64,000 bases of DNA from Cannabis sativa (lineage: Eukaryota; Streptophyta; Magnoliopsida; Rosales; Cannabaceae): NCBI RefSeq assembly GCF_029168945.1, contig NC_083607.1, forward strand, positions 36,503,257 to 36,567,256. Reading direction: 5' to 3'. The notes beneath the pieces were generated by a model, which was given only the letters and a program-made list of their open reading frames with translations, did not search any database and was not told the origin of the DNA. The position numbers were made by a program, and so were the translations under genes. How positions within the stretch are numbered: position 1 is the stretch's first letter; each line of letters starts with the position of its first letter. Below, in pieces: positions 5,349 to 27,522 of this stretch.

Positions 5349-5510
5349 AGGGGCATATTAAAGTTAGTCTTAGTTAATTTTCTGTTATAATTCAGTCAGT
5401 TAGTTAGTTCTAACTACCTCTTGTACCTAACACTCTATATATACTGCTCTTGTACCATTATTCAATTCAATTTGATCAATACAATGCATTTTGCTTTACT
5501 CTATTTTTTC
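5349..5510 (+). mobile_element. start of the 3' LTR of the decayed Copia element
   Basis: The pol remnant stops at 5348 and is followed by a short purine run, GAAGGGG, that fits a polypurine tract. After it come LTR-like features: repeated TTAGTTAGTT, 'ctctatatatactgctc' as a possible TATA region and a pyrimidine-rich end. The exact boundaries are not determinable and no second LTR is present. Confidence 0.5.
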
Positions 5511-6921
5511 TTTCTTTTCTTGCTTACTAATATATAAAGATTTTACGAAACTCCTCTCTATTCTAGGTAGGGACTCACCCTAAAAGAAGAGAGTGGACAT
5601 AAATAAATAGACCAAAATAGTACATTTGATAAAAATAAATAAATAAATAAATAAGCACTTTTTTTTATAAAATCACACCAAACATATTGTTTATCTAATT
5701 ATCAAAACCTAATTATAAGATTAAAATTTGGTATCTACTAAGTATACTATAAACACCACAAATTATTTGCACGAGCAAAAAATTAACATTATCTGTATTA
5801 GTTTTTGCTAGAAGATGGTCTGCACAATATCGTATATTAGCCTTAGGCATATTAGAACATCTCCAATGCACAAGCAAAAAAATGTATTAAATTTAACACA
5901 AAATTAATAAATATTATATTTAACAAACATTTTATAATTATGCTCTAATACATAATAGCAAATTAAATATAATTGTTAAAAAATAATAGCAATATTGTAA
6001 TCAAAAAAGTTTAAGTGCCAAATCTGATACAATAATATATATCTTGTACTAAATTTAACATAAGTTTTAACACAGTATTGAAGAAAGATTTTTTATAAAA
6101 GTATCAAAATATAGTATAACTTCAATTATTTGGGACCTCGAGGAGATGATCTTAGAATTACGTTACATGTTCTGTGATCATCCTCATTTTACAAGTGACA
6201 GCTCTATCTTGCGTTGGTTACACACTATCCAAGACATGAAATCAATTGGCAAATACCATTTTCAAGCAAAAAAATTAAAAATTAAAAATAATAATATAAA
6301 AAAATTAGCATATATCACAAAACATGGAGAAATACTAAAAGTCACCCACAGTGTCTATTACCCATATAAAGTATCATGTAACTACAATACAATTCAATAT
6401 CCGATCCAGAAAACCAACTATTTAAAGGGTGCTATCACATGGAGATGGTAATGCTCTTTCCTAGTGTGGGGTACTAAATGTCCCTTTTCAGAGCCCAACA
6501 AGAGGAGGTTCTCAAATTTCTGAAGCTACTGCTGTTCAAAGAGTTTTAAAATTAACAAACACAATAGAAACACATGTGGTTTTGGTTAAATAAATATATT
6601 TATATCAATGAAAAATCGCATATAATTGAAAAGCCTAACCCAAATGTATTAATACAGCTAAATGGATGAAACCAAGAAAATGGGATACATAACCTACAAA
6701 GTTAAGGGTTAAGAATCCATGAATTTTGAATTAAATAAGTGAGCCGCCCTTCAATTCACTCTTGGCCAAAAAATACAGCAGGAATGTTACTTGCTTGACT
6801 TTAAGGCTTTTAGTGGCAGTCACCTGGTTTGCTATTTAATGAACTTTGATAATGTAATACCCGAACCCACTGCGTCCTCAAAACTGTCAAAAACATGCAT
6901 CAATTGAAGCCTCACTCTGAT
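5511..6921. other. AT-rich intergenic; 3' flank of the SUF4-like gene
   Basis: No gene is supported. The segment has an (AAAT)n run at about 5632-5655 and long AT-rich stretches. A 101-residue open frame at 6146-6451 has no recognisable domain and biased composition, so I do not call it a gene. The last 300 or so bases probably contain the 3' UTR of the minus-strand gene. Confidence 0.5.
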
Positions 6922-9900
6922 CTAAAATGCCATTCTACCTGCAAGCCTGCTTTCTGATATCCTTCTATCAATGGCAGCATCAATTGAGCTCATCTGAAAC
7001 ATAAATCCACATCAGGAAATGATAAGCAGTGGCTTTAAGACATATAACATGAGGCAATCCAGATATATATATACAATATCGATCTTGTTCCTATGCTAGA
7101 GATGCCAAACTAGTGAAAGAAGCTGACCTGGGCCAAGTTGAATCACTGTTCGGTCATAAAATAAATAGCAATCATGCTATGAATGAGCAAAAATCTGTCA
7201 GGTTTGATTATGTTTTACTTCCAATCAAACCCCCATGCTTCATTTAAAGTTGAGTATTGGGAAAATGAATAACAAGAAATACACTCAAATTTTACATGAG
7301 CTACTATGTTATGTACTGAGTACAAAGCTTAGGTAAAAGAATGCTCGGGTAGATATTGCAGGGAAGCCCATCAAACAACATAATCACTAACATAAAAGTA
7401 GCATGAATACCTACTTGAATCTTTTGGTGCCCACAAGATTGGTTGGCATTGCGTAGAAACAGGATCATGACAGTTTAAAATGTAACAGCATGCCTATCAA
7501 CCAATTAGGTTGGTAGCAGAAAGATGGACAACTTAATGCTTTTTTTTTTTTTTTGCTAAGTGTGTTCTTTCATTTTCTTTTAATTTTAAAAATAAGTAAA
7601 AATATAAATCCATACATCAGTACCTCTATAACAGGAAACAATGTGTAAACAACTGAATCTGAAAACATGAAACATAAAAGCCTACCCATGTGGTTAGAGC
7701 AATCCAAACTCCATTAAATGAAGAGGTAGTATCACTTACCTGGCTAGTTTCATCATGCACCTGATACTTGCTTAAAGACATTCTTCTTTCCTCCTGCAAA
7801 TATTGCAGTCACGCATTGTAACAAGTTAGCAAGAATAACCAGAAAAAAAAATACAGTTAAAATAAAAAATTTTAATAAAGTAGAAAAACCTACCATGGAC
7901 ATAGCTTCATCATCCCAAACCAAATAGACCTCATTAGTGGCTGGCTGGGTTGCAGAGGTTTTATTTGTAATGACAGGAGGAGGTCCAATTGAAGGACCAC
8001 CAGTATTTGGACCCGAGGCATACGAGTGTGAATTGATTAACTCACCTATAGCAAAAAGTGAACAAAGGATTAATAAACAAAGGACCAACTTCACAATATC
8101 ATGTACAATGAAATCCAGCTCTTCATGGCAGAGCCATTAAAGGCATGGATATTACATTAGTCAGGAACTGATTTATGTCGGACCAGACAAAGATTGGCTC
8201 AAAGCCAACCAAAACAAATTTCGCCAAGCCCAGCCTTCTCGGTGTTTCATCTTCTTAGCTAGAACAACTACTGCGAAGCATAGATAATACAAATATAAAC
8301 AAAAAAAGGTCGGTGCTAGTTGATACTTTTAGTCATTAGGGAGAATACCTTGCATCCTATCACTAACACAAAGCTCCATCTAGCAAAAACAGTTCATGAT
8401 GAACTCCATAAGTTGGAAGCCCAGCCTTCTCAGCCAGTCCTTGACTTCGTGCAAATTATGTTGTTACCAGTTTTAATTACTGTAATTTTAGTTATTATAA
8501 ATAATGTTTCTTAAATAGCATGTTCTCTAAACTGGTTTAGGTGAAGGTTAATCTCAATGTCAGCCCAAGGTGCATGTTCAGGGGCCTGAACTACTTCAAA
8601 TAATCCTCATGTGTAGAATTGGAGCCCAAAGTTAAACTTATTTCTTAGAAATATAATCTAAATCTAATTTACAGTTTATTTTTACATCCATTTCTAAACT
8701 AAAACTTCCACAAAATCTATCGAAAGCAATATGATCAATATGATAGGTTAATGGAAAGCAAGAAAAAAAACATATCATTTCAGTGAGACAATACTTAGTC
8801 TAAGGATCAGAATGCTTGGAAATATGGAAGCTACTAGTCAGATAAGTGTTCAAACCTGAATGTGCATCTAACAAGGCTCTATTATCTACTGTTGAGCCTG
8901 GAGGGATGCTTGTTGAAAGCACCTGAGTAGAAAATGTCAAATTTTGGGCAGGTAAATTGTTATTGCCACCAACAGGAAATAAGGGCTGTGATACAGTAAT
9001 AGGAGGAGCTGATGTGGGCATTCCAGGAGTCATCTGCACAGGCTGGAGTGAAGGTGGTGCAGATGATGGCATAGGAGGCCTCACATTCTGTACTGGAAAC
9101 AATGGCTGCTGAGCATACCCCACCAATGGAGCAGACTGAGGCATTGAAACTGCTGGAGATTGTGGATACCAATGCTGGATACGATGAGGATTAGGCCAAG
9201 CATTAGGAGGCACTGGTACTGAAGAGTTGTACCTGGCACCATAGAAAAATAAATTTCTTTTGTTAAGACTAAATGTCAAATGAACAAGTAAACTGTAGGG
9301 AAAGCTATATGTTATGCTACTACAGGAAAGCATAATGATAATATAAACAAATTTGTTCAGCAACTAGCTCCATTAAAAACAAAAAACCTCTTAAAACATA
9401 CATACATTGGTGGCATCGCCCCTAAAGCAGGTTGAGGAGGATATGCAATGCCCATTGATGCAGGCACTATTGAACCCAATGGTGTTGATAAAACATCCCC
9501 TTTTGCCACTTTTGATGGAGCATCTTCATCTGCAAGAAATTTACGATTAGTGAGATTTTGTTCAATCATATGCCAGCTGCTTCCGTTCTGCGTGACAAGC
9601 TCTTAGACACTGAAAGCCCAACTTGCAACACTATTAATTCTAGTATTTTTCTATATTCAACAAGAGAAGAGATGTTAAAGCAGTATTGCAAGGAGGGAAG
9701 AAAGTTGGTTACTGAAAACCAATACCAAAGCTCACTTAATCAAAGAGGTATGAAATAACTTTGTTGTCAATTTCCAGATGAATTAAGGGTTTCATAACTT
9801 AAAAATTGTTTTCAATTTTTAAAAATAGAAAATAGCTTTTCAAAACTAATAGGGGTCGTTTGGCCAAATTTTTTAAAATCTGAGTTTTAAAAAACTAAAA

Positions 9901-12742
9901 AACAGAAGACATCAAAATGTAATTTTCAATTTTCAAAAACAATTTTTTTTGTCTAACATATTATATTTTACATTTTCGCTCACATACCTAGACCCAGACC
10001 CGGGACCTGGGACCTCAGACCCCGAACTCAGGACCCCGGACCCCGGACCGAGGTCCCTTGGACCCGAACCCCGACCCCGAACTTAGACTCGGACCCCAAA
10101 CCTGGACCCTGAACCCAGAACCCAAACCAAGATCCGAACTCGGACCTAGACCCCATACCCAAACCTCGGACCCCAACCCTGAACCTGAACCCGGTCCCGG
10201 ACTTGGACTCCAGACCCGAATCCCCAGACCCCGACCCGAACCTCAAACTCGAACCTGAGACCCGGACCAAGTCCCCGGACTTGGACCCAGACCAAGTCTA
10301 GATCCGAGCCGAGTTTGAGTCTGGGTTTGGGGTCTGGGACCAGGTGCGGGTCTGGGTTCGGGTCTAAGATTCAATCCCAAGTTGGATGTGTTCATGTCAT
10401 GGTATGGTGTAAACTATTGATTTTTTTTAGTAAAAAAAAATCTGAAAAGAGTTTTAGAAAAACTTGAGTCAAACACCATTAAATTTTTAAAATGATAAAA
10501 AAAAAACTATTTTTTGTTCTCACTTTTAAAACACAAAAATTTAAAAACTGAAAATACAGCCAAACAGCCTCTTACCTTCTTCACCATAATGTGCAGCCAA
10601 GACGTCATCAGGAATTCCTTGCATACCATATATTTCAATTTCTGTAGATTCTCTCCCTGATTTTGCATTGGGAACCCTGGATTGTCAAAACAAATGAACA
10701 ATGGTCAATGATATAGATATATATTACATAAAAAGAAAAACTATAAGATACATTTAGACCACTACGCACACAACCCCCAACCAAATGAGGTAGTCTCAAC
10801 TGGAAACTGTAACAATCAGAATTTTAAAAAGAAAAAGAAATAAGGAAAGAAAAACATAAAAGAGCTTAAGGTGAAGGCCCTAGAAAATATTATGGCATTA
10901 GGGATCAAAATATACTATCACCATTCTTGTGGCGTCATCCATTGCATATTTATTTACTTCAAAAGTATTATTTAGATGAAGGCATCTTTGGAATGCCTCC
11001 TAAAATAACCCAGCAAACAAGTAAATATCCTTGGGCCTGTAGTTACGCAAACATTGGGAGCTTTGAACTCTCCACATTGAGAGAGAAAAAATAAAGCCAA
11101 GCGCAGGGAAATCATATTGAAATTAAATAAGGAAAGTCATGCAAGGATAATAATAATATTCATAATACTAATGCATATGCATATGCATATGCCTCATGAT
11201 AATTGTCAGATAAACATTACGAAAAAGATTGATCTGTCCCAAACAAAACCCTGAACTAAACTTGCTAGCCTCCCGAATAATCAGACGCCCTTTGCTCACA
11301 CACCCCAAGGGCTATCATATCACACAAATAACATTCTAGACACCAAAATATTCTTATATTAACCGTTTCCACAGTCTTATTGCCTTTGCCGCTATCCTAT
11401 GGAATCAATAAATCAATACTACATCATTCGAGTATAATCAGCCATACATACTACATCAAAATTCAAAATGACAATCAATCAAAACTTATATAAAAAACAA
11501 AGAAAATTGATTGGAGAAAGAATGATATGCACACAATAATAATAATAATAATAACAGGAAAGGATGATGACCCTTATGAGACTATTTAAGAAACGATAAT
11601 TACAAACAACATCATATTACCGTTCCCCAATTCCCAAAATGTTATAAGAAAGGTAATCTTAAAGTCTTAAACCACACAAACAAACAAAGAAATTATCAGC
11701 AGGAAGTCAGATTGTCCATCCATGAATAAATTGAGATACAAGAAACAATTTAACCAATAACCCTTTAAAATTGAACTGAACAACTTAATAGGAATTATTG
11801 TTTAGGCATACCCAGTTATTATCACATACACGTTACAGTATAGTCCCAGAACAAAACAAACAAATAGAAAAAGAAATTTCATAAAACCCATCACTGTTTC
11901 AGTGATCCGTGCTTGTACCAGAATTTTATGTATCCCCGAATAAAATCCAGCATAAGGAAAATCTCAAACTCAATTAGAGATCTTATCTTCTTTTGTAGTT
12001 TTAAGTTTAACGATCCCGACATCAATCAATTTACCAAAATCATTTGTTTATAAATATTTAATCTTTTAACCTAACATATACATATACATATCCATACATA
12101 AACTCATAATAGAAAAAGAAAAAGAAAAATCACAACAACAACTTGTATTAATGGAAAGGTAATATGAGGAAGTTGTTAGGAGAAAAGCCAGGAAAACCCA
12201 AAGGAAATTAGATATTTAGAAGAAAAAGAAATACTCCAACCCCTAATCAAATCAGTAACTACTTTATACACTTCTTAAAGATGCATACTCATGTTGCTAC
12301 CCAGTTAATTTATTTTGTCCCATAAATCCTCCGTGACTTCAAGAACATGTTATATTAAAACCTGAAGAACTATTTTCCATTGTTTTCTCTATTGCCTAAA
12401 CTCCCCCTCTTTTCTGTGGAACCTATAAAGCAAATTCTATGATAAAAATTGTTTCGTTATCTAGAGAATGAATGAAATTTCATAACTTGATGAGATCACA
12501 TTTAAAAATACGAAAAATTGAATAGAAGAAGAAGAAGAAAATACGAACTTGGTGACGCTCTCCTTGTGGACCTGGAGGACGTGAATGGCCATACCACTGG
12601 CAGTAGAGAGTTTCTTGTGACAGACATGACACTTAAAGTGCTTAGCTTTCTGGTGCTGAACCAATATCTTCTCGTCGTCGAACTCTCTATCGCAGTAGTA
12701 GCACCACACCTTCGAGGCAACCCTCTTCTTCTTCTTTCCCAT
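6922..12742 (-). CDS. SUF4: SUF4-like C2H2 zinc-finger protein, seven exons
   Basis: The exons, in transcript order, are 12742-12549, 10676-10576, 9529-9406, 9232-8856, 8045-7894, 7793-7740 and 6993-6922 (stop TAG). All six introns are GT-AG, the phases join cleanly, and the CDS is 1074 nt, giving 357 residues, close to Arabidopsis SUPPRESSOR OF FRIGIDA 4. The N-terminus MGKKKKR is followed by two C2H2 fingers (C14, C17, H30, H35 and C38, C41, H54, H59). A long Pro/Gln/Ser-rich middle has PLFPV repeats, and the C-terminus has [16 protein letters not shown] and ends [14 protein letters not shown]. In Arabidopsis SUF4 is a nuclear DNA-binding protein that works with FRIGIDA to activate FLC and delay flowering; that role is known from the family and inferred here. 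The start is the conserved first Met. Intron 1 is 1.87 kb and intron 2 carries a 0.7-kb insertion. No disabling change is seen. Confidence 0.93.
9850..10572. mobile_element. non-autonomous DNA-transposon-like insertion in SUF4 intron 2
   Basis: The left edge reads GGGGTCGTTTGGCCAAAT and the right edge, reverse-complemented, reads GAGGCTGTTTGGCTGTAT, giving imperfect terminal inverted repeats that continue into oligo-A/T on both sides. The interior is the GACCC-type minisatellite. No transposase is present. The right end is 4 bp from the exon 2 donor (exon ends 10576). A clear target duplication is not visible, so the superfamily (hAT or PIF/Harbinger) stays open. Confidence 0.6.
9991..10367. 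repeat. GC-rich GACCC/GGTCT minisatellite with strand switch
   Basis: Degenerate 5-6 bp units (GACCC, GGACC, GAACC) run along the plus strand to about 10290. The last 60-70 bases switch to the complementary sense (GGGTCTGGG, GGGTTCGGG), so the array can fold back on itself. Open frames of 66-80 residues on both strands are composition artefacts. Confidence 0.85.
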
Positions 12743-13265
12743 TAAGGCCTTCTAAAACTCGCTAGGGTTACCGATTGTTGACTCCGATGGCCCTCTCTTC
12801 CTCCTTGCTTTGGGTTTTCGGATTCCTATTATTTATTCTCTCTCTATTTCTAGTTTTTTTTGTTCTGTTTTTTTTTTTTTTTAAAGCACCTTTCTTTTAG
12901 GTTATATATAAATTAGGAACAAACAGCCAGTTCTATTTTATTTAGTGGTAATTAAGTTAAACACTATATCAAATTTTAAATTTTGATAATTTTTTATATA
13001 AACTTTTTCTCTAATAATATCAGTGATTTTTTTACTCTTAAAGAAACAAAATAAATTAATATTATAGAATTCTAATTTTTCAAATTATTTTAAATTTAAT
13101 AAATGATAATTTTTAATTAATTAATTTATTATAAATGTATATTATTAAATCATGATCATGATCATTCTCAATAAGTTTTTACATCCTCGTTATCATATCT
13201 CATTTTTAATCATGATCATTCTTAATAGATTTTTACATAAAAATATTATTAAATAATGAGTTAAC
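12743..13265 (-). promoter_or_regulatory. 5' flank of SUF4-like gene, then AT-rich spacer
   Basis: The first 160 or so bases upstream of the ATG have a CT/GA-rich leader on the transcribed strand with an AACCCTAGCGAG motif, common in plant 5' UTRs. A homopolymer T tract lies at about 12870-12882. No convincing TATA box can be pinned. From 12900 to 13265 the sequence is AT-rich with no gene. Confidence 0.4.
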
Positions 13266-13490
13266 TGTTATAAATATTAATAATTATGTGGATGTTCAAA
13301 TCTTTTATTTATTACCATGAACTGTAATCAACATTCCTCTTTTCCTTAGTTTCCCTTTTTCTTAGTTTCTTAATATCTCACTCTTGTATTAGTATAAATA
13401 GGGGTTCACCCCATTGGAATAAACAACTCAGAAATTCTCATTCACTTTCTCTTTCTCTCTTCATCTTCTTCTTCTTTCTTCTCATCTACT
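13266..13490 (+). repeat. 5' LTR of the Copia element
   Basis: It starts TGTTATAAATATT. A TATA-like GTATAAATAGGGG lies at about 13392-13404 and is followed by a TTC/CTT-rich leader. It matches 18285-18509 over its full length with five substitutions and no gaps. Confidence 0.92.
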
Positions 13491-13563
13491 ATCAGCACGA
13501 GTCTCTGCCCAAGCTTCAAGCATGAATCTCTGCCTAAGACCCAATGTATGTATTTTGTTAAAG

Positions 13564-16500
13564 TTCTTGAATTGTTTCAAAGTCACGATACACTAATTAT
13601 ATATTTATATATATACTCATCTGACTGAAACAATTTCAAGAATCATTTTGGTTTCCTTTTTCTTTTTATCTATATATCTATATATTATATATGTATGTAT
13701 ATGTTTTTATATATTTATTATTAATTTCATATATATATTATGTTCTTATCATTCATAATATTTACAATATATGTGTGCCTATGATATGATAGAGAAAATC
13801 TATATAAATTATACATATATCCAAAAGATTATGTATTATCGATAAAATATTGCATATATCCTAAAGATTATGCATCATCGATAAAATCTTGCATATATCC
13901 TAAAGATTATGCAAACGTAATATTCATTATATAGTTGATGGATATATAATGAAGAGATGAATACATATTTATATATATGTTATTGTATTCTTTGAGGACA
14001 ATGAAAAGTAATCTAATATCGATATAGATTTTGACAAACATTTCCTGAAGTAAATGTTTTATATTTGTCAAAAAAAAAAATGATTGTATTTATGTGAATA
14101 CAACTAAAGAATCATTAAAAATGATTATTATTGATGCAATTTTATAGTGGGTTTTGAATATCCAAAACAAATATTAAGAAAATTGCATTGAAACATCAAA
14201 GTATAAGAATAACAATGAGCATGACTAATGTTATTTAAATACATGAGGCATGTATTTATTGTTCATCATTCCCTGCAGAGAATGATAGGAATTGAAGTCA
14301 ATTACTTTTAAAGATTCCTCGTATTAGTCATGTTATTATACATTGTTATTACTTGCAATGTTGGAAATTATTGAATCTGACATATATTAAAGATTAAATT
14401 TTGCATACATCTTGGAGACTATGCAAAAATTGCATTCATATATTCTTTGAAATATCGTAAAAGAAATTGTTGAATAATTTTTTATATTTTTATGGATGAA
14501 CAAGTAATAAATTTTTAAGAAATTTATAATAATGTTCTACTTGCTCAACGTCATTCCCCGAAGTGAATGTAATGATTTTAAATAATCAATGACATTATTT
14601 ACTACTCAAATATTTCCAGAAAAAAGTGAAAACAACCAAAAGATGAGATACCACACACAATCAAAGTGCATGAAATCTATATATCATGTGTGGAATTGAA
14701 TAATAGTGGTCGCGTACTTGTAGTACGGACACACTTATAATCAAGATAAAAGTATACTTGATTATTTAATAGAATGTGAATTGTACAAACTTATTGTACA
14801 TTTAGAATATTTAAATATCATTACCTAAAGAGAATGAATAGGCATGAAATTCTATTTCAAAGAATATAGATTTCACATATATTGGTAATGCTAGAAGCAA
14901 ATTAATATATACATATTTTATTATTTCTTGAAATCAATAGTTTCAAACTATTGTTAGTACAGGATATGTATATATATAGTTACTATATAATTCAGTTTGC
15001 ATATTCCCAAAAGTGGATATATAATTTACTAATATTTGTTAGTGATCCAATATAATCAAAGTGATAAAGAATCACAAAATGATTATTTGAAAAGCTTCCT
15101 GAAGAAGTACTCTTACATACAATTGCTACTTTGAGTAGTAAAATATCTTAGTATGTACCTAGATGTATAACTTTTATCTAGTTATGAAAGTAATAAGAGA
15201 TGACTTATTATATGTACTGGTTGTACATTTAAATATATAATATATCAAGTCATGATAATTAGACTGATGAATAGTCTATTAATAAATTAGACGACTTGTT
15301 AAAAAGATACCAGGAAACATGAATGATATATTATGGTTATATCTATTTGACCATTATAACAACATGATGAAGTTGTCATGTACATTTTACATTATACACA
15401 TCATTGAATTGATGATAGTGATTCCTGAAGAAATATAAAGTTTGATAAACATAATAGTGACTCCTGAAGAGTGTATATGTTTTGGAGAATAATATAATTA
15501 TATTATTCGTGTATATAAAAATGAAACTTGTAATGATTATGTTGTAATGAATTTACATTACATTTTGAAAGTTTCATTGAAATACAAATTATAGTGAACC
15601 TGAAGTTCATGAATTGAATTATTTTGACATGATCAATCATATGCAATAAATTGTCAAAGAATTTGACTAAATTTTGTTGAAGAACCAGAAGATTCTTCTC
15701 ATTGTTATTTATAAGGCTCAAAAGAAGAATGTGCATATATTTCCACATAGAAAATATTTAAATTATATTTTCTTAACAATCTTGAGCCATTGTTAGATTT
15801 TTATTGCATAGTTTCTTATCGATGTGATAAGATTATATGATCATGCATTTACAAAATGTGTAAATTTATGTATTTCTAATTATACACGTATGACTCATTC
15901 TTAGAAATGAATTAAGTTCATAAGTATTGAACTTGAAACTGAAGTTATTGAACCTGAAGTTCAATGTCATATAATATATATGAGTTTAAATAGATATTGA
16001 TTCATTGTGATATATTGAAATCCCTACAGGTGTATTAATATTATTAGATATCACAATTTTTAAAAATTCTCTCGATCAGGGGGAGAGAAGCAGTTGGGAT
16101 CGATGATAATTTTTGAAAAATGATCCTTGCACAAAGTATATAAGAACAGTATAGTTCAAAATGATATATACCAACTGCAAATCAATATTATTCAAAGTTG
16201 AGATAGAATGAGTTGAAAACGTCTGAAGCGTAAATGAACAATGTAGAAATTATTAATAAATGTTCATTTGATTTGCCCTGAAGTTGTTAAATCTAGAGGT
16301 ACTCATGGAGATACCTTAATGTTATAAAGTATTAAAATGATAACCGTGATGAAAACGGTACTTGAAAAGACTCCCAAGAGAAGTTAGACATAACACATTT
16401 GATCATAATTGAATCCCTGAAGTGATTCTATATAGGTACCTATAAATGATAAACATATTTGAAAAATATGTAATTTAAAGAGATCTCTATAAGTTATGTC

Positions 16501-17330
16501 AATATGGGAGGAAATTATCATTTATTGAAATTTTTGTCGACAATAAATATTGAATGTTTGCATATGCAATAAACTAACATGAGATAGCAAGGATCATGGT
16601 ATTAGATTTGTCGAGAATCATCGACATACATTTTGATTTTTGGCCAAAAGATTATGACGCAATCCAGACAAATTTACTCACATAAAGTGAAGTAAGACCT
16701 GTAGGGTGTGCAAATAAATATTTCTAATGAGAAATTTGCATATATGTATTTGTACATAATGAATTGTTGTACAAAGTTTGCATAGACATGAGATTGATTG
16801 AAGTAAGGCTTAAATATTGAGAAAATATAATCATGATTTGATTATAGCCTGGAATATATTTTATGAGGATTTATAAGCGTCACATAAATGTTGCAACAAA
16901 AGGTTATTTATTTGGAGCTCCTAATATAGTGAGAATTTGAAATAAGCCTTATCTAAAAATTCTAGAAGAATTTAATACATGTCTTAAGTGATATAAATTC
17001 TAAGTCGCGCGCACTATATGACAAAGATCTTTGTATGAAATAAAGACATGTAAGTAAATTATTATTTGAAAAATACGTATGGTTGTCTATGCAGTATAAA
17101 TACGTAAATTATACGTTGTGATAGACTCTTGAAGAGTTTTTGATTAATTTTCAAAACAAACTTTTATTTCTTTTGTATATCGAGAAATATTAAATGTATA
17201 AAGTTTGTTCATTAGTATTGAAGTCCTGAAGTACTTCATATGTATTAAGAATTATAGATATATGATCATTTGATATGAAAATTAAGATCATACAACAAGA
17301 TGGAACAAATATATGGTCTTGGAGTACCAT
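13564..17330 (+). repeat. array of short hairpins with a conserved CCTGAAGT-like loop
   Basis: Perfect or near-perfect arms flank a similar loop again and again. Those with exactly 8-nt loops are at 14036-14059 (AAACATTT/AAATGTTT, loop CCTGAAGT), 14265-14286 (loop CCTGCAGA), 14552-14569 (CCCGAAGT), 14818-14837 (CCTAAAGA, one mismatch), 15001-15020 (CCAAAAGT, one G-T pair), 15679-15698 (CCAGAAGA), 15775-15796 (CTTGAGCC), 16411-16428 (CCTGAAGT), 17219-17238 (CCTGAAGT) and 17313-17330 (CTTGGAGT). Longer 12-nt loops containing CCTAAAGA-like cores are at 13811-13836, 13889-13914 and 14399-14428 (9-bp stem). 15947-15965 has a 7-bp stem around CTGAA. Many other inverted repeats fill the gaps, for example 13564-13579 with 13626-13642, and 14845-14855 with 14866-14875. 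Confidence 0.85.
13811..13914 (+). repeat. three ~39-bp tandem units, each a hairpin
   Basis: Three consecutive units share CATATATCC(A/T)AAAGATTATG and differ in the outer arms: ATACATA/TATGTAT, TGCATA/TATGCA and TTGCATA/TATGCAA. The arms change together, so pairing is kept in each copy. Confidence 0.9.
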
Positions 17331-17640
17331 CATTATCACAAACAAAAATTTATATTATCATTAATGTGTTATGTTCATATCTACTTGAAATGTTAAATTT
17401 TAGTATGAACAAGATTGTATATACACATGAATGATACAATTAGTTGGATAAAGATTAATGTTCCACGAACCCCTCATCTATAATTTAGAAGTCCATACAT
17501 ACTCTGGAAGAGTTATAGAAAATATATGATCAAAGATTGTATATTGTGATATTTTAAAAGTGATAACAATAATCTTATGAGATTTATTATCACCAAAAGA
17601 ATTATGGATCATATGTGCATGAGGGGGAGACATATTCATG

Positions 17641-17813
17641 TTGCACTCTTTTTCCCTTAGCTCAGGTTTTGTCCCACTGGGTTTTCCTGGCAAGGTTTTT
17701 AACGAGGCAACTTGCAAATAGTTATGAATATGAAATATATATTGTACTCTTTTTTCCCTTAGCTCAGATTTTGTCCCACTGGGTTTTTCTGGCAAGGTTT
17801 TTAACGAGGCAAC
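17641..17813 (+). repeat. duplicated Copia 3'-region motif
   Basis: Two copies of a block of about 71 bp (17641-17711 and 17742-17813) share CTCTTTTTTCCCTTAGCTC, GTCCCACTGGGTTTT and AACGAGGCAAC. A third, diverged copy is at about 18206-18262. This block is commonly seen near the 3' end of plant Copia elements. Mirror-image open frames of 67-105 residues on either strand come from the repeat. Confidence 0.85.
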
Positions 17814-17944
17814 TATAAATCATGTTAACATACTTGCATTTTATGAAGCAAGTAGAGAATGTGTGTGAGTGAGATCATTGACATAGCATATTTGGGAAAC
17901 ATATGAATTGCACTCAATAAAGAAGTATCAACCCAAGCAATTCT

Positions 17945-18215
17945 CTATGGATAATACTGCTTGCATCGCTCAACTAAAAGGATGGTACATTGAAGGAGAT
18001 AGAGTTAGAACACATTTCACGAAATTCTTCTTTATACGCTTCAAGAAAATACATATTGGTGTTCAACATATTTAATCAAGTGTCAATCTTGCAAACTTAT
18101 TCACAAAGTTATTACCAACATCAACATTTGAAAAGACGGCAGACAAGATCGAAATTCGTCGATTAGAAGATCTCCACAAATGCCTAAATGAGGGGGAGTT
18201 AGTTTACACTATACT
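17945..18215 (+). pseudogene. Copia RNase H C-terminal relic
   Basis: One frame reads MDNTACIAQLKGWYIEGDRV, then KFFFIRFKKIHIGVQHI, a TAA stop, and then NLANLFTKLLPTSTFEK...RRLEDL. These match the usual end of Copia RNase H (DN.A.IAQ, GYIKGDR, KFFYTHEL, IRSSDNLADLFTK, PTSTF). It lies between the second and third copies of the 3'-region motif. Its better preservation compared with the rest of the interior is notable. No upstream reading frame connects to it. Confidence 0.85.
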
Positions 18216-18270
18216 CTTTTTCCTTTGATCAAGTTTTCAGCAAGATGCTTAATAAGGCAGTTATTATGGA

Positions 18271-18284
18271 CATCCAAGGGAGAG
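18271..18284 (+). other. polypurine tract of the Copia element
   Basis: CCAAGGGAGAG ends exactly at the first base of the 3' LTR (TGTTATAAAT at 18285). This position and composition fit the plus-strand primer. Confidence 0.8.
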
Positions 18285-18509
18285 TGTTATAAATATTAAT
18301 AATTATGTGGATGTCCAAATCTTTTATTTATTACCATGAATTGTAATCAACATTCATCTTTTCCTTAATTTCCCTTTTTCTTAGTTTCTTAATATCTCAC
18401 TCTTGTATTTGTATAAATAGGGGTTCACCCCATTGGAATAAACAACTCAGAAATTCTCATTCACTTTCTCTTTCTCTCTTCATCTTCTTCTTCTTTCTTC
18501 TCATCTACT
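18285..18509 (+). repeat. 3' LTR of the Copia element
   Basis: It is the same length as the 5' LTR, with five substitutions. Its right border is taken where similarity to 13266-13490 stops (after CATCTACT). Confidence 0.9.
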
Positions 18510-19373
18510 TTATATTATTTTATATTATTTTATAACATTAACTACTTAATTTTATGTATAGTAAATTTGCAATTTCTATGTTTTCCTTGTAAAGGAAATG
18601 TACAAAATAAAATTTATTAATTAATAATAAAAAAATAGATACAATTGTATCTAAAAATATTTAAATTCATATGTATTTTTAGATCTTTTAATTAACTTAT
18701 ATATTTTTAAATTTTTATAATCATTTAATTAAAGAGCTATCTTTAAACTTATAGTAAAGAAAAGAATGAAAGTTATAAAATTGTCACATAAAATAAAAAT
18801 ATAAAAAGGAACACAATCGATAAATTCATAGAAAACTCATCATGTAATTTCAAAACTTTTAAAAAAATTATAGTGAAAACTTTAAATTTAATTAATTAAT
18901 AAGTATAAATTATTAAAATAGAATAAAAATTAAGAAAAATAAATAGAATAGATAATAGTTTGTAGAGATTTTCAGTAATGTTCAAATAATAATTAGAGAC
19001 CAAAATATTATGAACTTAATATTGAAGTGAATTAAAAATAATAAACTAACTATGAATTGATCACATAAAAAGTGTTAATTTTTTTTTTCAAAGAATATTA
19101 AATAAAAATGTATTATCATATGGTGTATGTATGCATGATAAATGAAGAGGAAGTTTAAAAACATGGCAATTCCTTCTAACAAACAAAATATTAGGACACA
19201 ATAAAATACAATAATGCATGAATGATTGAAAAAAAAAATTAGGTAAAAAATTACTTTAAACACTAATAATCCAATGAATGACACTTATATAATATTAAAA
19301 TAATATAAAAAATACTTATATAAAAATAAACAATTCTAATAAATATAAAAGAAAGAGATGAACATTTTGTAAA
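18510..19373. other. AT-rich spacer, no gene seen
   Basis: Over 80 percent A/T by eye, with homopolymer runs and no domain-bearing frame. The last five bases (GTAAA, 19369-19373) are the left target duplication candidate of Tat element A; the right side has ATAAA. Confidence 0.6.
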
Positions 19374-21053: not shown

Positions 21054-24000
21054 ATGTCTGCCCCTACCTCTGGAACGAAATCTTCCATGAAGGGGGCGGC
21101 CACCTTGGCCACTCTGGAGGAAGTCATGAAGGGCCCTGTTGCCCAGGAGAACTACACTTCTCGTGCCAACGGTGGGGAGGCGGATGAGCTCCATCCACTT
21201 TGGTTTGTGCTCATCAACTAAAGAAGATCGTGACTGTGGCTGATATCAAGCCGTCTGCGTCCGGGGTCTTTCACCGCCTGCCTCGAGACGAGGAGACGCC
21301 CAATCACAACTATGGGGAGTTCGGAGCTTGGAGCCAAACCCATCTTATATTTGGGGCCATGCTCCCTCTTCAAGATTACTTTATTAACTTCCTTGTTTTT
21401 GTCGGCCTTGCGCCTTATCAACTAATTCCACAAGCTTACCGCCTGCTCTCAGGCTTGTTTATTTTTTATGTTGCCAGAGGCTGGGCTTCGCCTAGCCCGG
21501 CTGAAGTTTTATACTTTTACGAACTTGTATCTGTCCCCAAGAAGGGGGACAAGTTTAAAGATAGTTTTTTCACCCTCCGGGCCCATCCTTTAAATGAGGG
21601 CTCGGTCCTTTTTAATTATCAAAAGAATGTAAAGGAATACCGCCATCACTTTTTCTTCTCTTCTGGCTTCCAAGCCGTAGACCGCCCGGAGCTTCTCACG
21701 GAGTGGGTTAGGATTCCTCCTCTTCTCTGCACTGCTCCTACCCAGCTGTTTCTCCAACATGCCAAGACTTTCTCCACTTATGACAAAAAAGGTCTTAACG
21801 TGGGGGACTTGGTCAAGACGGAGAACTATCAGATGGCCAAGCTTATCTCCGGGAGCCAGTCGATGGATGACTTTAACCTTTCGAAGGTTCTCTGCCCAAA
21901 CATCCGTACTCCGGCCGCGGAGAAAGCACTCCGGGTGGACATCATAGCCTTGGCAGAGGACCGATATCAAAAGTACCTCTTTAGGAGGGAACATGAATTG
22001 GCTTACATCAAAGCTCAGGCTGCCCCCGGGAGGACCCTTCGTCTGGAGGCGAGCACAGATCGGATGCCTTCTAGGCCTAAATTGTTGGTCCTGGTTCCCA
22101 ATACTGAGGCTCTCGATGCCAGCACATCCAGCTCCGGTAAGTCTCCTTTAACGGTCCATCATGTTCCTTCTATCCAAGAGTATTCCCGGTATAGGCCTAT
22201 AGAGTTCGACGAGCGTCTTCTTAAGTTTAGGATGCCCCCACTCGGTGGGGGGATCATGCCAAGGGCTTTTACTTTTCCCACTTAGGTCATTTCTTAGGCC
22301 GGTCCCGGATGGGTTTCGGACCTCCTGCACCCACCCCTCTGGATCACTCAACTTATTTGTCTTCTAGTTGGTTTCTCCCTTTGGACAACTTTCTTGGAAA
22401 TGATGAGGCCAGCATTGTAGTTCAAGACTTTGCTAGGGCTGAGTTAGATAGTCAGGGTAGGACTAGCTTTACTGTTTTATTTTCATGTGTATGCTTCCTT
22501 ATGGCCATTCTGACACTTTATTTCTTTTTGAAGCAGCCAGACCGATGGAAGATCTCTTAGCGACTCTTGCCGAAACCTACAGCCCGGACCTTTCCCTGTT
22601 GGGTTTTGTGCCCTAAATAAAACCCTTTACAATCTGATTAGTTATCAATATAAGAAATTTGAAGTGATTTATGTTTGCATGAATTTTACATGCTAATAGT
22701 TTAATATGTTTATTACATTTACACACAAAATCAGTTAAGTCCAGATCATATGTTTATTCACAATTACAGTATCGTCAACACAGTGGAATGTGATTATGAT
22801 CATATGAATCAAAAGACTAAGTCCCTGTTTCATCAGTGTTTTGGATTTACACTAATGTGATAATCAGCGATGATGTGTACTTACACTTGGAGTAAGTTTA
22901 TGTTCTTTCCAGGACATTAGTAAAGTATACTAGTTTCGAATGTATGGAGTATACATTGGACTGGACCGATATTACAACTTAGTTAAGATATTATAAACTT
23001 ACCGTTATATCTTTCCAAGTCAATATCAGTAGTTGATCTTAAGATTAAAAGAATCTAAATCCTGATATGCTTAGGCTCAACTCAGGAGTACTATTCATGT
23101 TCTTTGATTTATTAGTTAAGCCTACTTTTGGGTCAGGGTGATACGTATATTTTGGGAACATGATAGTATGATTGAGTGGGAGTGCTGAACATAAATATGG
23201 AATCTATAGTTTCTACTGGTGTATAGAAGTCAAGTGATGATTCCCTTCGAGCTTAGCTAAATAGAAGTAAATGGATGAGCTCTTGTTTAAATGACTAATT
23301 CTTAGATCACTAAACATCATTTATAGGTAGCTAAGTGTTTTAAGGGGCAAAATACGTTGAGGGGTGAGAACGGTAAAATTATCCCATCTCGATGTAAATC
23401 ATCTATATAGAGGATCTTTGATCACAATAAGATTATAACAATGGTTAAATGAGATAGCATATCTATATCGTGGAACATATAATATGCTCTATCTAAGTTT
23501 GATAGTGCAATTCTAAGTTCTAAGAGTGGATTCAACGAAGAATTAATAAGTAGGAATTTACTTAGTAAATTCGGTTCACTTATTGGAAGCTCAGCATATA
23601 GATCCATGGTCCCCATTCTAGTTGAGACTATACTGCTTGTAAGACTCAATAATTGATTTGTGATTAATCAATTATAATTCTAAAGTTAGACTATGTCTGA
23701 TTTGTGCATTTTCACTAAGCAGGGGTGAAATTGTAAAGAAAAGAGATTCTAGGTTTATTTATTTATTAATAGACTTTATATGTCTAATTAATAATTAAAT
23801 TAAATGACAATATTATTTAATAATCTATTTTAGTTATTAAATAATTAGTTTTGGCATTTAAATGGTTAGAATTGGAAAATTGGCGTTTTTGAGAAAATAG
23901 AAATTAAATTTGTGAAAACTGCAAAAACCAAGTGGGGCCCATTACACACCATGGCCGGCCACTTAAAGTGGTTTTTTCAAATTGATATTTTTATTATTTT

Positions 24001-25823
24001 AATGCCAAATAATTCCTAACCTAAACATAGTAGTTGCCTATAGATAGAAATAGATGGCTCAGTCAAAATCACCACTTTTTCATAACTTTGAATAAATTTT
24101 TATGTCAGAAAATTCTCTCTTCAGAAAAACTGAGCCTTCCCTTTTCTCTCTATAGCCGAAATCATCTCTCTCTTTTCTTCTTCATAAATTTCGAACCTTA
24201 GTGATAGAGTAAGTACCCACACACAGCAAGTGGTAACTCAATCATAGATTGGAAGACTGTGAAGGATCACACACAAAGAGAAGGACATTCGAGCTCAGAT
24301 CTTGATAATACTCTGCGACAGAAAGGATACAAGGGTTAGAGATCTGAGTGGAAGGAGACATTAATTCTGCTGCATCAATGTATGGTTTTCTTAACTTTCT
24401 ATGTGTTTATTTATCGTTTTAGAAAGTTCATATTTAGGGTGTTAAACAACATACTTGTGAGTAGATCTAAGATCCTGGTAAAATAAATTCCAACATTCCC
24501 TTCCTCCGGTGCCTACCCAGGTGGTGACTTTGGGCAGGTCATCTTCCAGTGCCCCCTTGGGCACAATCGTTTTGATTGACGAGGATGGGGAGGCCGAGGA
24601 GGAGGAGGAAGGCGAAATTGCGGCTCTGCTGGATCGGAAGCGCAAAGGCCAAATGGTGGAGGCTGAGTCTTCCAAGAAGCCTAGAAGAAAGGACACTCCG
24701 GCCGTCAGCTCAGACTCGGGGATTCTGCCTGAGGCAGAGGAATACATTGTACCCCCCGGCATCATCCTTACTCTGGTTCCCGCCGATGAGGAGAGGCAGC
24801 AGCTTCGAGTTGCCAAACATAACTATGCCATGGATGAATATAGCATGGGGAATGCCGAGGTGGAAGCGTTGAAGAAGGTCTTGCGAGAGGCTCAACAAAA
24901 TTCTCTGTGCGAGGAGGCCTTCAAGAATGCCTGGGACCTAAACATGGACCCCCTGACGGACTGGTTCAACGGCTTTGTCGGCCCTGCCCTTGCTCCCTTC
25001 ACCTCTGAACTGACTAGCCAATTCGTTTCCCATCTGACCCAACTCCCGGCCAAAAGATACGCAGCATGCGCTTCCACGAACGCCATTTATCAGGTTCAGG
25101 ATATCAGCGCTTTCATGACCGCAGTGAGTCTTTGTTATTGGTTTTTCCTTTTCATTTGTGCTCTACCCTGTGGCATTTGATCTCTCATACTTAACTCGTT
25201 TGCTTTTCCAGATCGCTGCTGAGACTGGTCGCCTCTCAAAGACTTTGATAGATCATGGGTACGTCATGTCCGAGTTTGGGGGCATGGACGAGGCCATGAA
25301 GAGTCTAAGAGACCTGGCGGCCGAGAGGAAGGCGTTCCGAAAGGAAGCCCAGCAGAGGAAGGCACATGCGGAGAGGAGGCACCAGGAGGCATTGCAGGCC
25401 AAGGCGGAGGAGCTGAAGGCCCGGGACGAGGTCGTGGCCAAAGCGAGGCATGAGCTTAGGGAGGCCAAGGAGGCTGTCGAGGAGCTGACTGTCAGGTTGA
25501 AGTCAATGGAGGAGCTGCATCAGGCAGACTTGCAGTCGACGACCAATTTGACCGTTGAGGTGAAGGAGCTCAGGGATTTCAAAGATCAGGCCCTGAAGAA
25601 GGCTAAAAGAGATGAGCTCCTAGCCCCTGTCGTCTGCAAGCATGGCACTAAGTGCTTCGATGACGGCGTTTTCATGGCCTTGCAAACTAATGGCCAAAAC
25701 CTCAAGCTCGACTTCTATCCCAAGCCTGAGGAAGTCCTTGCTCGCTTCTGGGAGAAGAAGAAGAGGCTTGATGCCTTGCTTGAGGAGCGCAATGGGCCTT
25801 GTCTTCCACCTCGAATTGATTAA
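21054..25823 (+). pseudogene. antisense gene of Tat element A (gypsy-type transposon-domain protein)
   Basis: Coding exons are 21054-22456, 22537-25123 (interrupted by a solo LTR at 22597-24495 plus its target duplication) and 25212-25823. The phases match those of element B. The N-terminal part has a conserved block (GAWSQTHLIFGAMLPLQDYF, VGLAPYQLIPQAYRLL, PAEVLYFYELV) that resembles the Pfam 'putative gypsy type transposon' family (PF04195). The middle is acidic (EEEEEGE), and exon 3 is a long charged coiled coil ending KLDFYPKPEEVLARFWEKKKRLDALLEERNGPCLPPRID. The function of this family is unknown. Breaks are a 1-nt loss near 21195, another near 22230 and the LTR insertion. It converges on pol, with 386 bases between the two stops. 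Antisense genes in this position are known from Tat elements such as maize Grande (gene 23). Confidence 0.85.
22597..24495 (+). mobile_element. solo LTR (1.9-kb family) in exon 2 of the antisense gene
   Basis: It starts TGTTGGGTTTTGTGCCC and ends ATTCCAACA. A perfect 5-bp target duplication, TTCCC, lies at 22592-22596 and 24496-24500. At 1899 bp it is full length for the family. No PBS, coding sequence or partner LTR is present, so it is a product of LTR-LTR recombination. The parent lineage is not identified; long TGTTGG...CCAACA LTRs of this size occur in Copia Angela-type elements. Confidence 0.95.
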
Positions 25824-26209
25824 GCCAATCCATCATCCACTACTACTTTTATTACTATCTTTTTTTTTTCTCTTTTACATTTACAGTCTATTTTCCCTTT
25901 TTTCAGACAATTTAATCTTTTTCTTTAAGGGGAGACAATTTTAAGGCACGTCCCCAGCCCCTTAATATTTTTTTAGAGCCTGTTACTGGGTCCGAACATC
26001 TTTATATTTATGCTTAAATACATACTTTGCTTTAATTTCGTTAAACTTTTGGCCTGTTTTACATTTGCCCATGTGGTATGCCTTATTACCACCTGAGTGG
26101 CATGAAAAATTGTTTTTAAGGCACTTAGCTTTACAAATATAAATTTGGAAGTTGCATATACTTGTCTGGTACAAATTTACTTTACAGAGCATAAGTTTAT
26201 ATTTCTTGA
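25824..26209. other. convergent intergenic region, element A
   Basis: It separates the stops of the antisense gene and pol. It is T-rich with GGCACGTCCCCAGCCCC and a GTGGTATGCCTTATTACCACC hairpin-like stretch at about 26070-26092. Both transcripts would terminate here. No gene is seen. Confidence 0.5.
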
Positions 26210-27522
26210 CTATTGGTAATACTTTCGGAGGTGATCGGCGTTCCAGGTCCTAGGCACCATGGTCCCGTCCATCCTTTTAAGCTTGTAGGTCTTGGAGCCG
26301 ATTTCGTCCTCAATTTCATATGGTCCTTCCCAATTAGGCCCAAGTACCCCCACTCTGGATTCTTGAGTGGCTGGGAAGACTCGTCTTAAGACCAGATCAC
26401 TAATAGCGAATTTTCTACTTTTAACTTTTGAGTTAAAGTGTTTAGCCACGTTCTTTTGATAAGCTGCCATTCGTATTTGAGACTCATCCTGAAGTTCTTC
26501 AATCTGATCCAATGCGTCTTGTAATAAAGCCTTGTTTGTTGTTGGATCATAAGTTGTTCTCCTATGGGATGGGAATAGCGTTTCCACCGGGACCATTGCC
26601 TCACAACCGTATGCCATTGAAAATGGCGAGTGGCCAGTTGTGGTTCTTAGGGTTGTCCGGTAGGCCCATAACACTCTTGGCAATTCTTCGGGCCAATTGT
26701 TTTTGCAGGCCAACAACTTTTTCTTTAGAGTGACTTTTAGGATCTTATTGAGCGCTTCTGCTTGTCCGTTTGTTTGTGGCCTTGCCACCGCGGAGAAGCT
26801 TTTGATGACTCCGTATTGGTTGCAGAAGTCGGTAAATTCTTCGCAGTCGAACTGCTTTCTGTTGTCTGAGACTATCTTGTGAGGCAAGCCATATCGACAC
26901 ACTATGTTTTTGATAACAAAATCTAGTGCTTTTTTAGCAGTTATAGTCTTCATTGGCTCAGCCTCCGTCCATTTTGTGAAGTAGTCTACTGCTACTATGG
27001 CATACTTTACCTCTCCCCTTCTTGTCGGTAGGGACCTAATAAGATCTATTCCCCAGACCGCAAAGGGCCAGGGACTAGTCATCAGGGTAATCTCGTTGGA
27101 GGGGGCTCTTGGTATGTTCGCGAACCTTTGGCACGAATCACATTTTTGGACGTAGTCTATGCAATCTTTTTTCATGGTTGGCCAGAAATACCCTTGTCTC
27201 AGTATTTTCTTTGAGAGACTCGGGCCTCCTGTATGATCTCGCAGAACCCCTCATGGACTTCTAGCATAATTTTCTTAGCTTCAGGGTCCGATACACACCT
27301 TAGGTACGACATGCTGAGTCCTCTTCGATAGAGAATGTTATCCATCATCACATAACGGTGTGCTTGGTACTGTATCCTTCTGGATAGTGCCTTTTCTTGG
27401 GGCAACTCGCCTTTGGTTATGTATCCGATGATGGGGATCATCCAGTTGAGCTCTTGTTCAACTGCCGCCACAATGCTTTTGGCTTTAATGCTTGGTTCCG
27501 AGAGGCGTTCAACGGGCACCAC
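26210..27522 (-). pseudogene. integrase of element A
   Basis: The main frame (27175-26210, 321 residues from the first Met) begins inside the zinc-binding domain (CDSC) and has the DDE core. The first Asp is in WGIDLI (residue 44), the second in IVSDN (104) and Glu in NGQAEALNK (140), with the standard 35-residue D-E spacing. The C-terminal part has GPNWEGPYEI and ends HLRKYYQ. Upstream, 27522-27199 carries the preceding segment up to HEGFCE. A frameshift there breaks the HHCC zinc finger. The second Asp is followed by N-R instead of the usual N-G. Confidence 0.9.

Follow-up and report, generated by a model that had tools for sequence, protein, structure and literature searches.

The window, a 64,000-nt stretch of the Cannabis sativa genome, contains an LTR retrotransposon with the following parts (window positions):

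13266..18508, + strand: whole LTR retrotransposon, with paired 224-bp LTRs
13266..13489, + strand: 5′ LTR, 224 bp, starting TG, 97.8% identical to 18285-18508
13490..13501, + strand: primer-binding-site-like stretch TATCAGCACGAG, adjoining the 5′ LTR, assigned from sequence
13490..17640, + strand: noncoding, hairpin-dense, AT-rich interior, delimited by ORF scan and by excess of hairpins and folding
16079..16085, + strand: internal GGGGGAG box, putatively polypurine-tract-like in function, lying across the loop and 3′ arm of the 16067-16089 hairpin
17638..17814, + strand: two ~75-bp units with TTTGTCCCACTGGG, 93% identical, starting ~101 bp apart
17908..18075, + strand: RNase H remnant, likely from a Copia pol, its ORF closed by an in-frame stop
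18276..18284, + strand: polypurine tract AAGGGAGAG, immediately 5′ of the 3′ LTR, assigned from sequence
18285..18508, + strand: 3′ LTR, near-identical partner of the 5′ LTR

The element is identified as an LTR retrotransposon by its pair of directly oriented long terminal repeats and by the polypurine tract that precedes the second of them. We take TATCAGCACGAG to resemble the initiator-tRNA-Met site of plant Copia elements. The LTRs start with TG and share the end ...CATCTAC, their 3′ terminus not being clearly CA. As for a target-site duplication, the TTAAC that precedes the 5′ LTR has no counterpart at the end of the 3′ LTR, where an AT-rich tandem run starts; TTAAC occurs ~30 bp further on. 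Since the LTRs differ at only 5 of 224 aligned sites (three transitions and two transversions; K80 distance 0.0227), the element is apparently young, with little decay after insertion.

No ORF longer than 81 aa lies wholly within 13490-17640 (ATG, GTG or TTG starts), giving the large interior without gag-pol ORFs that characterises a LARD (longest ORF, 81 aa). A protein search with an 81-aa antisense ORF returned no candidate copy. The RNase H remnant is matched on public contigs by P0001, P0002 and P0003 at 98, 93 and 85% identity (75-76% coverage); these relatives cover the remnant, not the hairpin interior. Pfam assigned no family to the remnant, P0001 or P0002, gave only a chance match for P0003, and also failed on the window's other Copia-like RNase H remnant, to which the element's own has a weak match (E 0.022). 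The remnant is presumably Copia, judging by sequence likeness and this weak match, and the element is likely a Copia-type LTR retrotransposon.

Searches for more distant relatives were negative. IMG/VR gave no match to the conserved 3′-end DNA pattern, and four pattern matches each with P0001 and with the other Copia-like RNase H, none confirmed; of 49 pattern matches with P0001 in prokaryote genomes, none was confirmed. Distant BLAST found no match to 13490-17640 among plasmids or to 13490-17490 among phages. No Rfam family, hammerhead included, reached its gathering score in the window. Three weak Rfam matches fall within the element (E 1.5-4.5), none of them the hammerhead expected of a retrozyme; the best, MIR2617 (E 1.5), we judged to be chance.

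The interior is far richer in hairpins than its composition predicts. Counting perfect stems of 6 bp or more whose loops span 3-20 nt gives 99 in 13491-17640, against 46.6 in 200 dinucleotide shuffles (sd 7.5, max 66), and 89 in 13781-17640, against 40.4 in 60 trinucleotide shuffles (sd 7.4, max 59). Confident helices are similarly in excess (78 versus 42.4; sd 8.0, max 60; 20 shuffles), and the interior's fold energy with Watson-Crick pairs only is -664.6, against -458.6 (sd 12.9, 23 shuffles). The excess is local: stems of 7 bp number 32 versus 5.6 for loops <15 nt, 32 versus 11.1 for loops of 15-40 nt, and 88 versus 84.5 for loops of 200-400 nt. Across 24 overlapping 300-nt windows, the mean fold z was -2.27 on the + strand and -3.20 on the - strand, compared with -0.4 to -1.1 for AT-rich controls within the 64-kb window, which fold ordinarily; nine windows of a Gypsy element gave means of -1.57 and -2.22.

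Given the AT-richness of the region and the surviving RNase H remnant, it might be proposed that the hairpins arose by chance from base composition or are what is left of a decayed, ordinary Copia gag-pol. We consider this highly improbable: the interior exceeds the maxima of both kinds of shuffle in hairpin number and departs from the shuffle mean by 16 sd in folding, the AT-rich controls are ordinary, and the similarity of the LTRs leaves little room for decay after insertion. By tblastn, none of 40 frame pieces of 1-5500 matched the hairpin region below E 0.05 (best 0.055), a weak test in that the pieces come from one decayed remnant. On the shuffles and controls, we rejected the view that chance or decay chiefly accounts for the excess of hairpins.

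Ten inverted repeats with 8-nt loops had been described in the initial annotation as an array with a shared loop, and all ten are present. The loop is CCTGAAGT at 14044, 16416 and 17225, CCTGCAGA at 14272, CCCGAAGT at 14557, CCTAAAGA at 14824 (with one mismatch beside the loop), CCAAAAGT at 15007 (where the stem has a G-T pair), CCAGAAGA at 15685, CTTGAGCC at 15781 and CTTGGAGT at 17318. Of these, CTTGAGCC departs from the core. Hairpins that have 12-nt loops and a core of related sequence were also reported, and they exist, numbering four instead of three (13811, 13851, 13889 and 14399). These four are copies of each other, belonging to a 39-bp tandem array and one dispersed copy. Most arms across the array share no sequence. 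The principal members are:

13811..13914, + strand: three 39-bp units in tandem, forming hairpins whose cores are CCAAAAG or CCTAAAG
14036..14059, + strand: hairpin AAACATTT-CCTGAAGT-AAATGTTT, nested within a stem at 14029-14073
14208..14350, + strand: predicted multibranch domain in which stems of 10 and 13 bp enclose three hairpins, CCTGCAGA being the loop of the middle one
14265..14286, + strand: hairpin ATCATTC-CCTGCAGA-GAATGAT
14399..14428, + strand: hairpin with 9-bp stem TTTTGCATA/TATGCAAAA and core CTTGGAG, the dispersed copy of the 39-bp units
14552..14569, + strand: hairpin CATTC-CCCGAAGT-GAATG
15595..15609, + strand: hairpin TGAAC-CTGAA-GTTCA, 5-nt loop register
15679..15698, + strand: hairpin GAAGAA-CCAGAAGA-TTCTTC
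15947..15965, + strand: hairpin ATTGAAC-CTGAA-GTTCAAT
16411..16428, + strand: hairpin GAATC-CCTGAAGT-GATTC
16957..16973, + strand: hairpin AAATTCT-AGA-AGAATTT, containing a CTAGAAG core
17219..17238, + strand: hairpin TGAAGT-CCTGAAGT-ACTTCA
17313..17330, + strand: hairpin ATGGT-CTTGGAGT-ACCAT

The count of 8-nt-loop hairpins is in itself unremarkable, at 6 observed against 2.5 in shuffles (max 8). The array nevertheless exceeds chance, as had been claimed, and what is exceptional is the link between the loop word and paired flanks, as revealed by re-dealing the arms. In the 8-nt register, 36 words lie within two mismatches of CCTGAAGT, and 7 of them are flanked by arms of at least 5 bp, a number reached in none of 5000 re-dealings (mean 0.39); for exact CCTGAAGT words the count is three of six, reached in 0.8% of re-dealings. 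Allowing bulges, 9 of 27 C[CT][TAC][GA][AGC]AG cores have arms of at least 5 bp (re-dealt mean 0.62, max 5 in 5000), compared with none of three cores on the antisense strand of the interior. Outside the element, in 18520-64000, such hairpins are also in slight excess: 3 of 102 cores, a number reached by 4 of 300 re-dealings, and 3 of 139, reached by 8 of 300.

The word CCTGAAG is the most over-represented 7-mer of the interior, occurring nine times on the sense strand and never on the antisense, with 0.08 expected: an enrichment of ~100-fold on one strand only. Coding in one frame is not indicated, the nine words being spread over all three frames. Five of the nine have arms of at least 4 bp beyond the C-G pair; at 15098, 15424 and 15463 the arms are 3 bp, and at 16277 there are none. 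A better description of the unit is C-(CTGAA)-G, a loop closed by a C-G pair with an optional bulge. At 15599 and 15953 it forms with a 5-nt loop, and elsewhere one base is left over, giving the apparent 8-nt loop. In the predicted fold the nine exact words have a mean pairing probability of 0.22, against 0.60 when implanted in shuffled sequence, with none of 60 as exposed. Hence the interior has, by predicted exposure, the many stem-loops with a common exposed loop motif that typify dispersed packaging signals. In the predicted folds, the loop-word array is only part of a denser hairpin landscape.

That landscape could reflect a general need for structured RNA, as has been reported for LARDs: folding might compact the RNA, stabilise it or keep it from being translated, and CTGAA would simply be a favoured loop with no dedicated binder. 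Dense predicted folding over 4 kb, with multibranch domains such as 14208-14350 (mean helix probabilities 0.80-0.97), is what this account would lead one to expect. However, a preference for stability should use many loops, whereas one word dominates, and the C-G closing pair is often given up for the 8-nt loop in the predicted minimum-energy fold. We therefore regard this account as unlikely.

Several features of the stems bear on their origin. Only 22 of 574 confident pairs are G-U (3.8%, versus 10.5% in shuffles), and there are 16 1x1 mismatches versus 32.8. Mismatches at outer stem ends comprise 11 G-U (13.4 expected) and 12 A-C (10.6 expected), and those on the loop side 15 G-U (12.2) and 10 A-C (9.6). 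The stems thus resemble freshly made or renewed Watson-Crick inverted repeats, and because G-U pairs are depleted and the stems stop abruptly, they have probably been made or renewed via template switching, a process proposed to create and maintain RNA hairpins with the loop kept (PMC8794818). Single mismatches inside long stems were seen in five cases (three G-T, no A-C and two others), a number too small to weigh, though it leans the RNA way. Among four in-element paralogues, two both-side changes (A-U/U-A and A-U/G-C) accompany two broken cells, and this covariation was equalled by 56 of 500 shuffles and is not significant. The initial annotation had read the variable arms and constant loop of a noncoding LTR element as the mark of a conserved RNA; the array is real and strand-specific, and the depletion of G-U pairs does not fit so simple a reading.

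No sense-strand RNA preference was seen with G-U pairs barred: both strands then fold alike, at -664.6 and -664.1 (z -16.0 and -14.9). Nor was there an excess of A among unpaired bases as a sign of RNA (0.552 versus 0.587 in shuffles). A preference for nested over crossing stems was weak and was set aside: 8-bp stems gave 93 nested and 78 crossing pairs against 71.9 and 95.7 under random placement, and 7-bp stems 515 and 572 against 459.2 and 580.6, with crossings not depleted.

The hairpins could be mainly a mutational product. A reverse transcriptase or DNA polymerase that switches template at a small hairpin would overwrite one arm with the other's complement and keep the loop, and perfect inverted repeats would pile up where there is no coding constraint, with no function needed. 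Stems that are Watson-Crick perfect, poor in G-U pairs and 1x1 mismatches, abruptly bounded and local agree with this, as do the equal folding of the two strands with G-U barred and the published proposal of hairpin creation by switching (PMC8794818). Yet the one-strand enrichment of the loop word is left unexplained, and the directional bias derived in PMC8794818 for intrastrand switching is absent (GC 63 versus CG 72; TA 261 versus AT 247). A purely mutational origin is a genuine possibility, on balance an unlikely one. Alternatively, the hairpins might act as DNA or on both strands, as single-stranded cDNA or antisense RNA, which would explain the few G-U pairs; the antisense strand also has the stronger mean z. 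But the strands are equal with G-U barred, therefore leaving no antisense preference, and the exact loop word is confined to the sense strand; we consider such action improbable.

We favour, tentatively and at somewhat less than an even chance, a non-autonomous, LARD-like, likely Copia-type element whose C-(CTGAA)-G loops are predicted docking sites for a helper protein, most likely Gag. The element would move with proteins borrowed from a complete relative. About a dozen sense-strand loops of the C-(CTGAA)-G type would dock the helper protein, which as Gag would recognise and package the element RNA; template switching during copying would make and renew the perfect stems, while selection would keep loop and pairing. 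Hairpins that lack the loop word may serve to compact the RNA or may be side effects of this switching. Against docking, G-U depletion is unusual for an RNA that selection alone maintains, the antisense strand folds just as well relative to its own shuffles, in-element covariation is not significant, four of nine exact words lack a 4-bp arm, and core hairpins are in slight excess outside the element too. The yeast Ty1 system also counts against it, since internal deletions of up to 5 kb do not significantly alter its transposition in trans, and its packaging sequences are located close to the 5′ end (PMC4974528). The same source states that Ty1 packaging sites are not clearly defined and that scattered sites are suspected.

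How the RNA of a gene-less element enters another element's particles is largely an open question. A 4-kb interior freed from coding and rich in one exposed loop word would offer a read-out of particle-protein binding. Should template switching prove to be the source of its stems, the element would also offer a natural setting in which to study how RNA hairpins originate. More speculatively, and in our view doubtfully, the genes may have been replaced by a dispersed packaging code, in which CUGAA-loop hairpins commandeer helper Gag, with stems rebuilt in reverse transcription and the loop selected. To our knowledge, no array of CUGAA-loop hairpins of this kind was known in LTR retrotransposons, and none of the titles and abstract openings listed from open-licence literature describes hairpins with a common loop arrayed in the interior of a Copia element or LARD.

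Among known systems, TRIMs and retrozymes are likewise non-autonomous plant LTR elements; both are short, and retrozymes carry a hammerhead, for which the Rfam scan gave no match at gathering score here. LTRs of the LARD Sukkula are about 4.4 kb, unlike the 224-bp LTRs of this likely Copia, rather than Gypsy, element. LARDs such as Sukkula nonetheless share with it an LTR structure and an interior without protein products, with proteins assumed to be supplied in trans, and are said to specify conserved RNA secondary structure (PMC7215508), where the structure here is predicted from one copy; a repeated, strand-specific loop word on unrelated stems is not mentioned in the part of PMC7215508 on which we draw. 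The Copia-derived enod40 stem-loops resemble our case in that a partly duplicated plant Copia interior matches the stem-loop of an RNA gene, and differ in being single host-gene insertions with no shared loop word reported in the sections cited (PMC10578108). BARE2 retains much coding sequence. It cannot make Gag, and its RNA is packaged into BARE1 particles, a parallel to the borrowing proposed here, with no hairpin array in the abstract (PMC3735527). In the RNA itself there is a likeness to the packaging signals dispersed through RNA viruses and hepatitis B virus, where the capsid protein reads a loop motif common to many scattered stem-loops (PMC6281560; PMC7612645); those signals lie in viral genomes and come with binding data, whereas the present element is known from its sequence.

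Judged by the character of its repeats, the window is probably plant DNA. The hairpins lie within an LTR retrotransposon (5' LTR, 13266-13489; 3' LTR, 18285-18508) whose main features are:

13266-18508, + strand: LTR retrotransposon
17908-18075: RNase H remnant, near the element's 3' end
18509-18534: AT-rich tandem run TTTATATTAT, starting immediately after the 3' LTR, at the expected site of a target-site duplication

The LTRs differ by three transitions and two transversions over 224 aligned sites (K80 0.0227). A polypurine tract lies directly 5' of the 3' LTR, and directly 3' of the 5' LTR is a stretch that we take to resemble a primer-binding site. We found no clear target-site duplication at the element ends. 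The longest ORF in the interior (13490-17640) is 81 aa. Three proteins from public contigs (P0001, P0002 and P0003) match the RNase H remnant at 98, 93 and 85% identity over about three-quarters of its length; hence, related copies of this region exist. We presume the element to be Copia-type, by sequence likeness. Pfam named no family for the remnant, P0001 or P0002, and gave P0003 a single weak match to an unrelated family. This silence says little about the remnant, since Pfam also named no family for the ORF at 4893-5348, presumably a Copia-like RNase H remnant of a separate element. No relatives of the interior were found in the viral, prokaryote, plasmid and phage collections searched. 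We conclude that the element is LARD-like, lacks coding capacity, and has a hairpin-dense interior with a repeated loop word, a real and unusual feature.

GGGGGAG boxes occur on the sense strand at 16079, where the box covers both the loop of a hairpin and its 3' arm, 17623 and 18192, besides the polypurine tract at 18276; the three internal boxes could be extra plus-strand primers or duplication relics. The stretch 17638-17814 holds a pair of similar units with TTTGTCCCACTGGG...AACGAGGCAACT. Such motifs usually lie downstream of pol; their position here, upstream of the RNase H remnant, suggests internal rearrangement.

The interior holds 99 perfect stems of at least 6 bp with 3-20-nt loops, against 46.6 (s.d. 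7.5, maximum 66) in 200 dinucleotide shuffles; trinucleotide shuffles, run on 13781-17640, gave 89 against 40.4 (maximum 59). Both counts exceed the shuffle maxima, bearing out the proposal in the initial annotation of a hairpin array beyond chance. A Watson-Crick-only fold of 13781-17640, with pair spans of up to 200 nt, reached -664.6 kcal/mol, against -458.6 (s.d. 12.9) in 23 shuffles. The stem excess is local: 7-bp stems numbered 32 against 5.6 expected for loops below 15 nt, 32 against 11.1 at 15-40 nt, 39 against 27.2 at 40-100 nt, 46 against 43.7 at 100-200 nt, 88 against 84.5 at 200-400 nt and 487 against 438.6 (s.d. 24.9) at 1000-3000 nt, with an excess of 9-bp stems persisting at 100-200 nt (12 against 4.6). 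In a plain tally of perfect hairpins in 13491-17640, loops of 3, 5, 7, 9, 11 or 13 nt numbered 49 and those of 4, 6, 8, 10, 12 or 14 nt numbered 25.

We scanned all 64 one-kb blocks of the window for stems of at least 7 bp, with 15 shuffles per block. Blocks starting at 14001, 15001, 16001 and 17001 had 11, 11, 10 and 6 stems (shuffled, 2.7, 2.4, 1.7 and 1.3), against a maximum of 6 elsewhere; the scan also picked out blocks 1-1000 (6 against 0.9) and 58001-59000 (5 against 0.5). Block 32001-33000 had 6 against 1.8. Across 24 overlapping 300-nt fold windows of the interior, mean z was -2.27 sense and -3.20 antisense, against -0.4 to -1.1 in three AT-rich controls and +0.45 in the flank at 10.5-13.3 kb. 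A Gypsy element at 52-60 kb gave -1.57 and -2.22 (nine windows); thus, a moderate fold signal also occurs outside the element. With 200-nt windows the contrast was weaker (-1.48 inside, 21 windows; -0.52 outside, 293 windows). In two related LTR elements (21200-31617 and 51730-61521) pol, with RVT_1, is encoded by the minus strand, and the plus strand has more ORFs, an arrangement we take to be that of Gypsy elements with antisense ORFs; Pfam gave no match for the three plus-strand ORFs submitted (21200, 51730 and 53806). Likely remains of Mutator-like elements at 36695-38901 and 42118-43107 comprise MuDR-type DNA-binding domains, SWIM zinc-finger domains and a DUF1985 protein.

Among 7-mers with at least three copies, CCTGAAG is the most over-represented in the interior, with nine sense copies (0.08 expected from dinucleotides) and none antisense; its relatives CCAAAAG and CCTAAAG are likewise high. 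Across the 27 cores that fit C[CT][TAC][GA][AGC]AG, flanking arms pair over at least 4, 5 and 6 bp in 10, 9 and 5 cases, against means of 1.31, 0.62 and 0.29 (maxima 7, 5 and 3) when right arms were re-dealt 5000 times; the pattern was derived from these data, and re-dealing holds it fixed and tests the arms only. The nine exact words divide into five with arms of 4 bp or longer, three with arms of 3 bp and one (16277) with no paired arm. Cores at 13821, 13860, 13899 and 14411 belong to hairpins whose apparent loops are 12 nt long and whose stems are related. No antisense core of the interior (0/3) lies in a hairpin. Arms of at least 5 bp flank 0/34 and 0/22 cores in 1-13200, and 3/102 and 3/139 in 18520-64000 (0.49 and 0.67 re-dealt; matched in 4 and 8 of 300 re-dealings), a slight, unexplained excess outside the element. 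A TCAAAGT box, located by eye, has five copies (0.44 expected) at 13577, 14196, 14661, 15056 and 16192, three of them 40-90 bases upstream of a CCTGAAG-like core.

The unit can be written C-(CTGAA)-G. An unbroken stem ends in the C-G pair, leaving a loop of 5 nt, at 15599 and 15953; at 14044, 14272, 14557, 15685, 16416, 17225 and 17318 one spare 3'-side base gives an 8-nt loop; in the 39-bp units (three in tandem, with hairpins at 13811-13914) the minimum-energy fold bulges on the 5' side. The constant 8-nt loop of the initial annotation is one register of this core. Regardless of sequence, 8-nt-loop hairpins number 6 against 2.5, inside the shuffle range, so the signal does not lie in loop length by itself. 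Covariation within the element, among four paralogous hairpins with two both-side changes and two broken cells, is not significant. Pairing probability in the predicted fold averages 0.22 (range 0.08-0.50) over the five loop bases of the nine words, against 0.60 (lowest 0.46) for the same words placed in 60 shuffled interiors.

Among 574 pairs at probability of at least 0.7, 22 (3.8%) are G-U, against 10.5% in 20 shuffles. Mismatches show no G-U preference at outer stem ends (11 against 13.4 expected) and at most a slight one on the loop side (15 against 12.2). Stems are interrupted by 16 1x1 mismatches, against 32.8, including one G-U and two A-C. Such G-U-poor, rarely interrupted stems are what would be expected if one arm of an inverted repeat serves as the template that generates or repairs its partner. 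Monttinen and Loytynoja propose that template switching can create stems and can also renew them with the loop kept (PMC8794818). The directional base-pair bias that they derive is absent from the element's stems; therefore, switching may differ in direction or enzyme, or selection alone may act on young stems. Template switching accounts for the perfect arms but not for one enriched, sense-only, exposed loop word.

A loop-reading protein would be the simplest cause of such a word. An element without genes would have to borrow its particle protein, and CCTGAAG-type loops might serve as repeated Gag docking sites. Capsid proteins of several viruses recognise many dispersed stem-loops sharing a loop motif (PMC6281560), and BARE2 RNA is packaged by BARE1 (PMC3735527). 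Given that need and these precedents, docking of Gag is the reading we favour, tentatively. The main objection comes from yeast Ty1, whose interior is not needed for function in trans and whose packaging sequences map close to the 5' end, according to a review (PMC4974528); the same review also allows a contribution from scattered sites. As a kind, the element is one more variant among the non-autonomous LTR elements already known; judged from the open literature searched, its novel part seems to be the loop word carried on unrelated stems.
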